Below the pieces are notes generated by a model, which did not search any database, was not told the origin of the DNA, and saw only the letters and a program-made list of their open reading frames with translations. This document shows positions 11,360-59,145 of a stretch of 64,000 nucleotides of DNA, piece after piece (position 1 is the first letter of the stretch; the number at the start of each line of letters is the position of its first letter). Location: contig CAMCMZ010000007.1 of the NCBI GenBank assembly GCA_945876185.1, positions 1 to 64,000 of the forward strand, given 5' to 3'. This DNA is from Candidatus Kuenenia stuttgartensis. GTDB taxonomy: Bacteria > Planctomycetota > UBA11346. Position numbers and translations under genes: made by a program.

Positions 11360-11570
11360 AAAAATCGCAATTGCACCCCACCTGCTGCGTTGGTCGTCAG
11401 TCATTGGGCGCTGCCCAACTCCTTCCTCCCGCCTTGCATCTGGGGCGCACTTGCGATTTTTTTAGGAAGTCGATGTAGCCAGCGTTCAAAGAGGGGAAGG
11501 CCGATACGATCTTCGCACACGACTGGTGCCGGCGGGACCAACGCCGCAGCTGGGGTGCAATTGCGATTTT
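11360..11570. repeat. Family A palindromic element, composite copy, downstream of the regulator gene
   Basis: The intergenic stretch 11229-11574 is largely this element. The left arm AAAAATCGCAATTGCACCCC at 11360 is complementary to GGGGTGCAATTGCGATTTT ending at 11570. Between them, at 11457-11463, is a further right-arm-like end (GCACTTGCGATTTTTTT). The core contains GTTGGTCGTCAGTCA and CTCCTTCCTCCCGCC, shared with the copies at 13670, 14949 and 32314. The arm starts 4 nt after the TGA of the minus-strand regulator gene, and its A/T ends make it a plausible bidirectional terminator. Confidence 0.85.
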
Positions 11571-11574
11571 GGCT

Positions 11575-12441
11575 TCAGTGGCTCGCGGTGGTGGCGCGGT
11601 CGAGGTACTTGATCGCCACTACTCGATTGCCGCGCGCGTCGTAGACCAGCTTGTCCATCAGGTTGCGGATGAGGTGGATGCCGTAGCCGCCCAGGCGCTT
11701 GCCTTCGTTTTTGCGACTCTCGATGTGGGCGAGCGGATCGATGCTCGGGTCGGGGACCTTGCTGATGTTGAAGCCCTGGCCTTCGTCCTCGATGTAGACG
11801 ATGACCTTGCCGGGCAGGATGCGGCAGCCGAATTTCACTTTTTTCCCTGGATCGTTACGGTTGCCCCACTCGATGGCGTTGCGGCCGAGTTCTTCGAGCG
11901 CCAGGCGCACCTCGCCGGCGGCCGGTTCGGGGATGCGGAAGCGTTCGAGCAGGCCGAGAAAGCGACGGTAGCGGTAGAGCACCGACGCGTCGCTGCCGCC
12001 GGTGACCTCGAACCAGCCGTGCGGATCGTATTCGACGTCGAGCTCGGTGCCGGCGACGGGCAGATGCTGGAGCGTGTTCGCCACGACAAGGAGCAGCGCG
12101 TCGATGCCGACCGGCTTGACCAGGTAGTCGCAGGCGCCGTGGCGCAGGCAGCGCACGATGACGTCGTCCTGGCCGAGGGCGGTGAGCATGATCACCGCCG
12201 CCGGATAGGCGCGCTTGCGCAGTTCAGCGAGAAGCTGCTCGCCGTCCATGCGCGGCATGATGATGTCGCAGACCAGGAGGTGGAATGGTTCGGTCGCGGC
12301 CTCGATGCGATCGAGCGCCTCGCGCCCGTCGCCGGCGGTCTCGATGACGAGCTGACCGCCCAGGTCGCGCAGAGTCTCGGCCACGTGCGCGCGCAGGGCC
12401 GGCATGTCTTCGACCACCAGGATGCGGTAGCCGGTGCTCAT
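11575..12441 (-). CDS. Response regulator with receiver domain and GHKL (anti-sigma-kinase-like) output domain
   Basis: A 288-residue fusion. The receiver domain (about 6-120) has the acidic pair near 11-12, phospho-acceptor Asp59 in LLVCDIIMP, Thr87 and Lys109 (VKP). A linker leads to a GHKL ATPase domain of the RsbW/SpoIIAB type: N box EELGRNAIEWGN near 183-194, G1 box EDEGQGF near 218-224 and G2 box GGYGIHLI near 251-258. No DNA-binding domain is present. Such a protein most likely works by partner switching, with phosphorylation of the receiver controlling binding to, or phosphorylation of, an anti-anti-sigma or similar partner. The partner is not in the window. It is co-transcribed with the histidine kinase just upstream, through a repeated stop/start junction. 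Confidence 0.88.
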   Translation of the reverse strand: MSTGYRILVVEDMPALRAHVAETLRDLGGQLVIETAGDGREALDRIEAATEPFHLLVCDIIMPRMDGEQLLAELRKRAYPAAVIMLTALGQDDVIVRCLRHGACDYLVKPVGIDALLLVVANTLQHLPVAGTELDVEYDPHGWFEVTGGSDASVLYRYRRFLGLLERFRIPEPAAGEVRLALEELGRNAIEWGNRNDPGKKVKFGCRILPGKVIVYIEDEGQGFNISKVPDPSIDPLAHIESRKNEGKRLGGYGIHLIRNLMDKLVYDARGNRVVAIKYLDRATTASH

Positions 12442-12494
12442 GGCTGTGCCTTGCTCATGGCTGTGCCCTGCTCATGGCTGTGCCCTGCTCATGG
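12437..12494 (-). repeat. 17-bp tandem repeat at the kinase/regulator junction creating three chained mini-ORFs
   Basis: Three full copies and one partial copy of a 17-nt unit (minus strand CAGGGCACAGCCATGAG, with one copy CAAGG...). Every copy contains ATGA. Read on the minus strand, the kinase ends CAG CCA TGA with an ATG overlapping its stop at 12492. That ATG opens MSRAQP-stop, whose TGA overlaps the ATG at 12475. That opens a second MSRAQP-stop overlapping the ATG at 12458, which opens MSKAQP-stop overlapping the regulator ATG at 12441. The unit therefore looks like a duplicated stop/start junction. Confidence 0.92.
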
Positions 12495-13316
12495 CTGTTC
12501 GGCCGGTCCCGGAACGGGGATGGTGACCAGGAAGCGGCAGCCCTTCCCGATGTCGCTATCGAGGGTGATCGTGCCGTGGTGCAGGCCGACCAGTCCCTTG
12601 ACGATGGCGAGGCCAAGTCCGATCCCGGCATCGCCGCCAGTGTTGGCGTTGGCCCAGGCGCGGCGGTAGAACGGCCGGAAGATACGATCCTGTTCGTCGG
12701 GCGGCACGCCGGGACCGTCGTCATGCACGCTGAACCGCGCTCCCAGCGCATCGGCATCCATGGTCACGGTGACGGTGCCGGTGGCCGGGGTGAACTTGCG
12801 CGCATTGTCGACCAGATTCATCAGCACCTGGAGGATGCGCCGGCGATCGACCCAAGCGACCTTGCCATCGAGGGCGTCGGGCGTGGGCCAGACCGCCTTG
12901 AGCCGCGCCGTATCCAGCACTGGCTCGGTGGCGGCGCGCAGGTCGGTGAGGATTTCGGTCAGGGCGATCGGCTGACGTCGGATCGCGCCATGCCCGGCGT
13001 CGAAGGTCGACAGGTCGAGCAGATCGTTGATGAGGTCGAGCAGCGTGCGGCCATTGCGGCTGATGCGGTCGACCATCTCCAACTGCTTGCCGTTGAGTTT
13101 GCCGCCGGCCCCGGTCTGGAGCAGGTCGGAGAACCCGATGATCGAGTTCAACGGGGTGCGCAGGTCATGGCTGACCCGGGCTAGGAATTCGGTCTTCATC
13201 CGGTCGAGTTCGAGCAGCCGTTGGCGCTCCAACTCAAGACGTTCCTTCTCGGCGAGCAGGCGGACATTGGCCGCCAGCACATCAAGCGTTACTGGATCGG
13301 GATGTGGATCGGACAG
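12489..13316 (-). CDS. Histidine kinase (HisKA-HATPase), cytoplasmic
   Basis: A sensor-less histidine kinase. A coiled leader (EKERLELERQRLLELDRMK) runs into the HisKA box FLARVSHDLRTPLNSIIGFSD. The HATPase domain has an N box around LMNLVDNARKFT, G1 HDDGPGVPP and G2 GIGLGLAIVKGL. There are no membrane segments or input domain, so it may act as the catalytic part of a larger signalling complex. Start choice is unusual. The frame is open to a stop near 13377 without an ATG. GTG at 13280 has no clear ribosome site, whereas CTG at 13316 sits about 7 nt after a strong GAGGAGG. I use 13316, and the product is then 275 residues (263 from the GTG). The gene pairs with the receiver-GHKL protein downstream. 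Confidence 0.88.
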   Translation of the reverse strand: MSDPHPDPVTLDVLAANVRLLAEKERLELERQRLLELDRMKTEFLARVSHDLRTPLNSIIGFSDLLQTGAGGKLNGKQLEMVDRISRNGRTLLDLINDLLDLSTFDAGHGAIRRQPIALTEILTDLRAATEPVLDTARLKAVWPTPDALDGKVAWVDRRRILQVLMNLVDNARKFTPATGTVTVTMDADALGARFSVHDDGPGVPPDEQDRIFRPFYRRAWANANTGGDAGIGLGLAIVKGLVGLHHGTITLDSDIGKGCRFLVTIPVPGPAEQP

Positions 13317-13323
13317 GGCTTGT

Positions 13324-13331
13324 CCCTCCTC
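13324..13331 (-). promoter_or_regulatory. Strong ribosome-binding site that argues for a CTG start of the kinase
   Basis: GAGGAGGG on the minus strand lies 7-8 nt before CTG (13316-13314) and about 45 nt before the in-frame GTG at 13280. No ATG occurs in this frame between here and the upstream stop. Confidence 0.5.
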
Positions 13332-13669
13332 GGGCTGGTCGATGGATCGTTCGTTGCGCCACTGGACCGTGGCTCAGCGTCCGTCAGCAGGTAGTGGATA
13401 CACCACAAGCGGCCAATGATCAACATGTCTGAGGACGTGCGATCTGGGAAGATATCAAGCGCATGTATCGCCTGAAACGGTTAACGGCTCGGCCGGTTCA
13501 ATCTAAATCTCGCAAATGAGCCCTTCACTTTACAACAAGCTGGCACGGGTAAAAGGTTTGGTGAATTTCCCGCCCCCACCAATCGGGTGAGGAGATCGGA
13601 TCGGCCTTCCCCGCTTTGAACGCCGATCACGCCGACCATCATCGAAACCGCCACACAACAATTTCCTTC
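13332..13669. other. Intergenic stretch without recognised gene
   Basis: This is the divergent region between the kinase and the HIT protein. It should hold promoters for both, but I cannot pick a convincing -35/-10 pair. Part of it (around 13485-13560) is noticeably AT-richer than its surroundings. Open frames here are short and not protein-like. Confidence 0.5.
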
Positions 13670-14726: not shown

Positions 14727-15046
14727 GATGACACCCGGCTGCAAGGCCGGGTGTCGAGGTCCCATTTCGATTAGCAGATGGCCCAAGGAAAACGTCCAGA
14801 GTACCTCAGCGGCAAGGCGGGAGTAAGTTGGAGTAAGTTGGAGTAAGTTGGGCAGCGCCCAATGACCCGCGACCAACGTCGCAGACGATGACACCCGGCC
14901 GCAAGGCCGGGTGTCGAGTTCGCTTCTTCGATGAGGCAGATGGCCCGAGGAAAACGTCCAGAGTACCTCAGCTGCAAGGCGGGAGGAGGGAGTGTTGCAG
15001 CGCCTCGTCCGGCCAGGTGTGGCCAATCGGCTACCTGAGCGCAGAG
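14727..15046. repeat. 160-bp tandem direct duplication with GNRA-capped hairpins
   Basis: The stretch starting GATGACACCCGGC at 14727 recurs at 14887, a period of 160 nt, with modest divergence. Each unit opens with a near-perfect hairpin: an 11-bp stem GACACCCGGC(C/T), loop GCAA and GGCCGGGTGTC, at 14730-14755 and 14890-14915. It then runs into a family A left arm (GGAAAACGTCCAGAGTACCTC). Unit 1 also carries three copies of GAGTAAGTTG at 14821-14850. The hairpins lie just downstream of the MazG-like gene and could end its transcript. Confidence 0.85.
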
Positions 15047-29548: not shown

Positions 29549-31183
29549 GTGATGCGTGAGGGAAACGGAACCGGCGTGACCGTCATCCGCTTCGTCGATG
29601 GCACCCTGACCCTGCATGAGGCCGCTCCGGCTGTGCTGGAGGCCCTCGGCCCGCTGGCGGTCGCCGACCCGCGCATCGGCGGCCATCGCGCCCGCGCCTG
29701 CGACTACGCTGAGATCCTGCGCCGGCTGCACGGCCGCCACGCCTACCGTGACGAGGCGCGCCAGTACCGCGAACTGGACCTGAACGAACACGAATCGCTG
29801 CCGCTGCGCGAATACCAACGCCTCGCGCTCGAGTCCTGGGGAGTCGGGCGCAAGCGTGGGGTCGTGGTGCTGCCCACCGGCGCGGGCAAGACCTACGTCG
29901 CGCTCAAGGCGATGCTGATGGCCAAACGCTCGACCCTGGTGCTCGCCCCGACCATCGACCTGGTGCAGCAATGGGCGGGCGACCTGGCCCGCCGCCTGCA
30001 GGTGCCGATCGGGATCTACGGCGGCGGGGAGAAACGCCTCGAGGAAATCACGGTCTCGACCTACGATTCCGCCGTGCTGTTCATGCCATTCCACGGCAAC
30101 CGCTTCGGTCTGCTGGTGTTCGACGAATGCCACCACCTGCCCGCAATGGTCACCGCCGGCGCGGCTGAACAGTGCCTGGCCCCGTTCCGCCTGGGCCTGA
30201 CCGCCACCCCGGAACGCACTGACGGCCAACACGCCCGCCTGGATGACCTCATCGGGCCGGAGGTCCATCGTTCGCATATCGGTGAACTCGAAGGCCGGTT
30301 CCTGGCGTCGTACCAGGCGGAAGTGCTGGAAGTGGCGCTCGATCCCGACGAAGCGGTCGCCTACCGCGAGGCGCGGGCCGAATACGTCGCCTTCATCCGC
30401 GCCCAGGGCATCGATTTTTCCGCCCCCGACGGCTGGGCCCAGTTCCTTGCCGCCGCCGGGCGCGATCCCGACGGCCGCAAGGCGATGCGCGCCTACCGCG
30501 AGCAGCGCCGCCTGGCGCGTTCGGGTCGCGCCAAGCTGCGCGCGCTCTGGCAGCTGCTGCGTGAACATGCCGGCGAACGCTGCCTGGTGTTCACCGACGA
30601 CAACGACACCGCCTACCGCATCGGATCCGAATTCGTGCTGCCGGTGCTGACCCACCACACCAAAGGCGGCGAACGCAAACGGCTGCTCGACGCCTTCCGC
30701 GCCGGCACCCTGCCGGTGCTGGTCACCAGCAAGGTGCTGAACGAGGGCGTCGACGTGCCCGAGGCGTCGGTGGGCATCATCGTCAGCGGTTCCGGCAGCG
30801 TGCGCGAGCACGTCCAGCGCCTGGGCCGGCTGCTGCGACCGAAGCAGGGCAAGACCGCGATCCTGTACGAACTGATCGCCGCTGGCACCGCCGAGGCATA
30901 CACGTCGCAGCGGCGGCGGTCGCACGCTGCTTTTGGCGAGCAAGTCCGGAACGGCGAGCAAGTCCGGAGTGGCGAGCAAGTCCGAAGTGGCGAGCAAGTC
31001 CGGAACGGCGAACAAGTCCGGAGTGGCGAACAAATCCGGAACAGGGGCGAAGTCCGGAGCTATGGCCCGATCCGGATGGGCGAACCCTCCCCCAAGCACC
31101 GCGAAGATCCCGGCGACGACGGGGTTCGCGACGCTGACGCGGAGTGGCCGGAGGACCTCTTTTCCCACGCCGATCCCGACTGA
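29549..31183 (+). CDS. XPB/Ssl2-type superfamily 2 DEAD/DEAH helicase
   Basis: A 544-residue helicase. Motif I LPTGAGKT is near 107-114, motif II FDECHHLP near 189-196 and motif III LTATPERTDG near 217-226. A long insert follows (FIRAQGIDFSAPDG), then the second RecA domain (CLVFTDDNDTA, VLVTSKVLNEGVDVPEAS, QRLGRLLRPKQGK). The motifs match bacterial XPB-like enzymes thought to act in DNA repair or recombination. After the conserved end (about 460) the C-terminus holds six-residue repeats GEQVR(N/S) and an acidic tail. It starts 10 nt after the TilS-GlmU stop, with GTG at 29549 or ATG at 29552. Confidence 0.9.
   Translation: MMREGNGTGVTVIRFVDGTLTLHEAAPAVLEALGPLAVADPRIGGHRARACDYAEILRRLHGRHAYRDEARQYRELDLNEHESLPLREYQRLALESWGVGRKRGVVVLPTGAGKTYVALKAMLMAKRSTLVLAPTIDLVQQWAGDLARRLQVPIGIYGGGEKRLEEITVSTYDSAVLFMPFHGNRFGLLVFDECHHLPAMVTAGAAEQCLAPFRLGLTATPERTDGQHARLDDLIGPEVHRSHIGELEGRFLASYQAEVLEVALDPDEAVAYREARAEYVAFIRAQGIDFSAPDGWAQFLAAAGRDPDGRKAMRAYREQRRLARSGRAKLRALWQLLREHAGERCLVFTDDNDTAYRIGSEFVLPVLTHHTKGGERKRLLDAFRAGTLPVLVTSKVLNEGVDVPEASVGIIVSGSGSVREHVQRLGRLLRPKQGKTAILYELIAAGTAEAYTSQRRRSHAAFGEQVRNGEQVRSGEQVRSGEQVRNGEQVRSGEQIRNRGEVRSYGPIRMGEPSPKHREDPGDDGVRDADAEWPEDLFSHADPD
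30934..31060 (+). repeat. 18-bp in-frame tandem repeat in the helicase C-terminus
   Basis: About seven degenerate copies of GAGCAAGTCCGGARYGGC encode GEQVR(N/S). Because the unit is 18 nt with no stop in any register, several frames stay open here, including SKSG(T/V)A repeats in a shifted frame. The repeats lie outside the conserved helicase core. Confidence 0.88.
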
Positions 31184-49366: not shown

Positions 49367-49671
49367 CCCCTGGGACCGCCGGTTTGCAACCGGCAGGGTG
49401 GCAGATGTGGTCCGATCCGGATCGATCGCCGAGATGACCGAATCTCGTCCCCTCCACGATCTCCTGGTTCAGACTGCACATTCAGATGCCTGGTATCGCT
49501 CGGCCGGTTGAAAACCGGCGGTCCCATGCGCAAGCGTTCAGCGACGTGCCAGATGACCGAAGCGCGTCCCATCCACGATCTCCAGGTTCAGACGGCGCGT
49601 CAGTGGCCTGGTATCGCTCGGCCGGTTGAAAACCGGCGGTCCCAGGCGCAAGCGTTCAGCGACGTGCCAGC
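49367..49671. repeat. Family D repeats including a 119-bp tandem duplication
   Basis: The 540-nt gap 49197-49738 holds GGGACCGCCGGTTTGCAACC (49369) and two consecutive 119-nt units starting ATGACCGAA at 49434 and 49553. Each unit contains GCTCGGCCGGTTGAAAACCG and GCGGTCCCA, followed by GCGCAAGCGTTCAGCGACGT. The inverted repeat CCGGTTGAAAACCGG gives a small perfect hairpin. A single related unit lies at 41853-41915. No gene was found in this gap. Confidence 0.85.
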
Positions 49672-59069: not shown

Positions 59070-59093
59070 TTTTCGTGTCTCATTTATTGGTTA

Positions 59094-59145
59094 GCGCTGA
59101 AGGTTGCGCTGAAGGTTGCGCTGAAGGTTGCGCTGAAGGTTGCGT
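59094..59145. repeat. 12-bp tandem repeat upstream of the copper genes
   Basis: Four copies of GCGCTGAAGGTT followed by GCGTCAG lie between the YHS protein gene and the membrane peptide gene. They stand about 25-75 nt upstream of the peptide start on the minus strand, where they could vary promoter or leader spacing. Confidence 0.85.

Follow-up and report, generated by a model that had tools for sequence, protein, structure and literature searches.

Tandem ATGA-linked mini-ORFs between a histidine kinase and a response regulator: a putative re-initiation relay that recurs at bacterial operon junctions

In the window, a 64,000-nucleotide stretch of a Candidatus Kuenenia stuttgartensis contig, a histidine kinase gene is followed on the minus strand by the gene of a REC-HATPase_c_2 response regulator, and the two are joined by three 17-bp units chained through ATGA overlaps. 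We propose that an ATGA junction was duplicated here and acts as a coupling relay, which is the best explanation of the data at a probability of roughly 0.57. We infer that ribosomes may pass through the chain and thereby affect the level of the regulator. The feature represents a variant of translational coupling at ATGA that recurs in bacteria and is apparently undescribed in the literature searched.

Architecture of the kinase-regulator junction

The array comprises two copies of ATGAGCAGGGCACAGCC and one of ATGAGCAAGGCACAGCC, and every unit encodes a mini-ORF of six codons and a TGA stop, which shares an ATGA with the start that follows (Table 1). The kinase gene itself ends in GAA CAG CCA TGA, with its stop at 12491-12489, and the ATGs that come after it are located at 12492, 12475, 12458 and 12441, the last of which is the start of the regulator (ORF 12441-11575). 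The distance from the kinase stop to the regulator ATG is thus 47 nt (+47), and all four steps of the chain are -4 nt (ATGA) overlaps. Inspection of the letters, the frames and the TRF output confirmed the arrangement of three chained units that had been described in a first-pass annotation.

Table 1. Features of the junction and other tandem arrays of the window
Feature	Position	Strand	Remarks
Response regulator, Response_reg + HATPase_c_2 (Pfam)	11575..12441	-	288 aa
17-bp tandem array	12435..12498	-	TRF: score 121, 3.8 copies, 97% matches
Mini-ORF 3	12438..12458	-	MSKAQP, stop; AAGG 7 nt 5' of regulator ATG, Shine-Dalgarno-like
Mini-ORF 2	12455..12475	-	MSRAQP, stop
Mini-ORF 1	12472..12492	-	MSRAQP, stop; ATG overlaps kinase TGA as ATGA
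Histidine kinase, HisKA + HATPase_c (Pfam)	12489..13280	-	263 aa from GTG; C-terminus GPAEQP, stop; open frame reaches upstream to 13373
10-bp array, GGAGTAAGTT	14820-14851		perfect
18-bp-based array	30935-31059
118-bp duplication	49432-49670
12-bp array	59089-59144

Kinase and regulator are co-directional. The output domain of the regulator, HATPase_c_2, is of the anti-sigma-kinase-like (RsbW-like) and not of the DNA-binding type according to Pfam; together with the receiver, it makes the protein a response regulator whose output is anti-sigma-kinase-like. Consensus scans of positions 11450-13600 revealed neither a sigma-70-like promoter nor a terminator at the junction, within the limits of such scans, and predicted RNA structure in the array did not exceed that of shuffled sequences (z 0.11).

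Origin of the array and related arrays in the family

Close homologues of the regulator (57-79% identity) are present in almost every one of the family's 22 other genomes, with one genome showing a weak match only. Regulator homologues in the family often adjoin a kinase. The kinase-regulator junction is ATGA in the same-genus G001 and in G003 and GTGA in G011 and G017, while the other relatives with a kinase ahead of the regulator display a spacing of a few nucleotides. The comparison of unit number between related genomes, which the first-pass annotation had put forward as a check, thus gave zero: the 17-bp unit was absent from this junction in all family genomes where a kinase precedes the regulator. 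Since the relatives carry plain junctions, the array would most simply have been born from such a junction in the lineage of the source genome. Its units and the sequence that now flanks them agree at 8 of 11 variable positions, a fit that is compatible with an older local duplication, although it does not allow the original event to be reconstructed exactly. The proposal that the array arose by duplication of one ATGA junction is borne out by the plain ATGA and GTGA junctions of the relatives, as well as by units elsewhere that are made from local flanks (see below).

The core CAGCCATGAGC is often seen around gene starts in the family, and its single copies lie mostly at ordinary starts; it was thus ruled out as a mobile or otherwise special element. 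In the source genome it is tandemly repeated, with differing middles, at four places. The first is the junction of the window, and the second is pyrB-pyrI, where the flank-derived block AGACAGCCATGAGCCAG has been triplicated exactly, giving two units that encode MSQRQP and a stop. The third array is located 5' of a secreted repeat protein gene with no co-directional gene before it (a leader position), and the fourth separates a flgM-like gene from the gene of a TPR protein. At pyrB-pyrI, plain overlaps are seen in several relatives and unrelated tandem repeats in others. At each of the two junctions, kinase-regulator and pyrB-pyrI, the units occur in a single genome of the family. Arrays that share the core in G014 and G005 are in-frame 18-bp coding repeats (SHE-rich) and were discarded as chains.

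Two further ATGA arrays complement this series: an 11-bp array after sdhC (L602, G000 contig C12, 6772-6797), which encodes MSAK, MSAK and MSVK, each with a stop, and ends blind well short of sdhA, and a 14-bp array on contig C52. The six non-coding ATGA arrays of the source genome have periods of 17, 17, 17, 17/18, 11 and 14 bp, and the fact that all six essentially fall into class 2 mod 3 is suggestive only. In a 464-kb sample of the source genome, the intergenic regions contain approximately 20 short tandem arrays with a wide range of periods, and 400 kb of G001 contains a similar number. These numbers, taken together with the other ATGA arrays and the repeat-rich nature of the family, point to ordinary slippage or local duplication as the generator. 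We note that G001 has a junction chain of its own (L437, contig C30, 6381-6446), with three 20-bp mini-ORF units flanked by two long ORFs whose translations look like phage-tail proteins.

Recurrence at operon junctions and unit number

A genome collection was scanned for three CCATGA motifs at 17-bp spacing, which identified at least 115 loci; 139 of the 159 matches listed are true tandem repeats. Among the matches listed, the period-17 arrays come from many phyla, and 21 of 99 lie exactly between two long co-directional ORFs, as opposed to 8 of the 501 single CCATGA sites taken from the same DNA for comparison. Here, a junction was defined by at least 150 codons on each side, with one ORF closed by the first TGA and the other opened by the last ATG. 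Five junction pairs were checked by Pfam and all correspond to real operon partners: an OmpR-type regulator and a kinase, a CoA-transferase and a TPP enzyme, the Fe-S and FAD subunits of a molybdoenzyme, a TsaD-family protein and an acetyltransferase, and a solute-binding protein and a permease. The longest chain noted has five units (L226). For junction arrays from many phyla, agreement with the local flanks reached 8.0 of 11 positions, compared with 4.6 when flanks were permuted (500 permutations, maximum 5.67), which shows that units elsewhere derive from their local flanks. A Shine-Dalgarno module is not a general conserved element of these arrays, as SD-like motifs were found in 3 of 24 junction arrays, near background. 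None of the 57 units in the 24 junction arrays contains an internal in-frame stop, as compared to 15 of 117 non-junction units, a difference that is confounded by base composition. On viral contigs, tandem ATGA arrays were evenly divided between classes 1 and 2 (5:5), and none of them lies at a junction.

Unit number varies at the orthologous junction between CaiB (CoA-transferase) and the TPP enzyme in Rhizobiaceae, where 0, 1, 2 or 3 units are found, always of 17 bp: none in Shinella, one (MKKALS, stop) in the finished R. leguminosarum plasmid CP022567, two in the isolate genome of R. mesosinicum and three in Rhizobiales AFS010580 (loci L172, L273, L519 and L520 carry 2, 3, 1 and 0 units, respectively). 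The unit sequence has diverged while the 17-bp period has held. In the annotation of CP022567, the unit appears as a 13-nt gap.

The period has consequences for the reading frame. Because 17 equals 2 (mod 3), each copy recreates the -4 nt overlap and coupling can pass along the chain; with a block of 1 mod 3, a mini-ORF spans two units, so that only odd-numbered starts are reached. A period spectrum was calculated over 392 + 398 + 397 partly overlapping genomes. Classes 2 and 1 stood at 6:0 at junctions with at least 150 codons on both sides, although the arrays are few, and at 7 versus 2 with at least 100 codons, compared with approximately 33:19 for the other arrays by hand tally. With so few junction arrays the lean towards 2 mod 3 is not significant, and neither the reading frame nor the copy number is established as a target of selection. 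Three candidate junction arrays of 1 mod 3 (L449, L502 and L513; 7, 13 and 19 bp) all display odd copy numbers (5, 5 and 3, too few to weigh).

A putative relay, its alternatives and known systems

In the mechanism that we favor, slippage or local duplication would have turned an ancestral single ATGA junction between kinase and regulator into tandem copies of a 17-bp block. The kinase stop would thus feed a chain of three six-codon mini-ORFs, the last of which ends exactly on the regulator ATG, and a ribosome that finishes the kinase could re-initiate at every step. Re-initiation in native E. coli and Haloferax gene pairs requires an overlap or a very short gap, approximately 20 nt nearly abolishing it, and the final 15 nt of the upstream gene are enough for termination-reinitiation (PMC10666635), while other studies report a longer reach (PMC12548453). 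Given the limit of approximately 20 nt, a bare 47-nt insertion should largely uncouple the regulator, and given that the last 15 nt suffice, a six-codon ORF can act as an 'upstream gene'. The chain may hence preserve translational coupling across the 47-nt insertion, probably with some loss per step, and the same duplication recurs at ATGA junctions across bacteria and would stay where it is harmless. Against this mechanism, some arrays of the source genome cannot be relays, namely the C12 chain with its blind end before sdhA and an array on contig C5 that lacks an upstream gene.

The array could instead be inert slippage debris that ribosomes do not traverse, with the regulator initiated de novo from the AAGG-bearing last unit or from an unfolded leader RNA. 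We regard this as unlikely. In its favor, intergenic short tandem arrays are common in the source genome and its congener, some ATGA arrays of the source genome occupy leader or blind positions, the AAGG in the last unit is suitably spaced from the regulator ATG, and SD-like motifs occur above background at start regions of the source genome (23% versus 9%). It fits poorly, however, with the strong enrichment of arrays at exact stop-start junctions (21/99 listed versus 8/501), with the scarcity of SD-like motifs at junction arrays elsewhere, with the lack of internal stops in junction units, subject to the same confounding by base composition, and with the constancy of the 17-bp period in Rhizobiaceae.

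A broader reading, which we hold to be rather doubtful, is that the chains are a class of recurrent natural re-initiation relays that derive from duplicated stop-start junctions, are maintained, and set the ratio of the partners through unit number; only block lengths of 2 mod 3 would then keep a one-unit chain across the inserted DNA. Still less probable is the reading built on the first-pass annotation, in which unit number is a selected, slippage-changed and heritable dial for the kinase:regulator ratio. The range of 0 to 3 copies at the orthologous Rhizobiaceae junction is in its favor, as is the fact that array junctions join ratio-sensitive partners (HK-RR, PyrB-PyrI, Fe-S and FAD subunits), but within the family each of two junctions has units in one genome only, ordinary slippage explains their presence, and the period bias is not significant. 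Thus, the origin and geometry proposed in that annotation hold, while a purpose-built tuning function is unproven and its scope was too narrow, since the design recurs across bacteria; the notion of a device special to kinase-regulator tuning is not supported, given the ATGA arrays of the same genome at pyrB-pyrI, in a leader and blind after sdhC, and the many other short tandem arrays in its intergenic DNA. Lastly, short-read assemblers can miscount repeat copies and the assembly is in 123 contigs and 82% complete, but a wrong unit count or a regulator start elsewhere is very improbable, considering that the units differ from each other (AGG versus AAG), that the same design exists in a finished plasmid and in an isolate genome (R. 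leguminosarum CP022567 and R. mesosinicum), that the receiver domain begins at residue 7 and that the regulators of relatives have their starts in the corresponding position or close to it.

The literature searched gave no published description of such ATGA mini-ORF chains, in line with the first-pass statement that no described regulatory device is known to be built in this way. It is still a matter of dispute whether a ribosome that has terminated remains bound to the message or scans (PMC10666635, PMC12548453), and recurrence at operon junctions makes these sites a natural test of whether ribosomes can hop through mini-genes without release. Natural chains offer six-codon ORFs as the sole short-range path to the next gene and are ready constructs for measuring per-step re-initiation efficiency; they would also show how an operon junction can grow by duplication and yet stay coupled.

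The putative relay resembles ATGA (-4 nt) termination-reinitiation coupling (PMC6728339, PMC10666635, reviewed in PMC12548453) in that every step consists of a -4 overlap within a single mRNA, and both known ATGA-coupled pairs and array pairs are often partner proteins or complex subunits. It differs in that four consecutive overlaps run via mini-ORFs and the genes themselves lie at +47 nt. Leader peptides, intergenic small ORFs and minigenes likewise place a very short ORF directly 5' of a gene; these ORFs are translated, and the gene that follows may be fed or regulated by them (PMC4833913, PMC8092293, PMC8708949). Three six-codon ORFs lie immediately upstream here, but known leader peptides and minigenes are single or paired and non-repeated, whereas these are near-identical tandem ORFs, stop on start. 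Like intergenic short tandem repeats and VNTR contingency loci, the feature is a local array in which the number of units may change, and comparison of related genomes gave 0 units in the congener at this junction and 0-3 at the similar Rhizobiaceae design. It differs from them in that the length and content of its units maintain a translational chain. Synthetic bicistronic designs and translational coupling elements (PMC11602170) also employ a short first cistron that ends on the next start, as a means of controlling initiation; the chains described here are natural, tandemly repeated and up to five units long.
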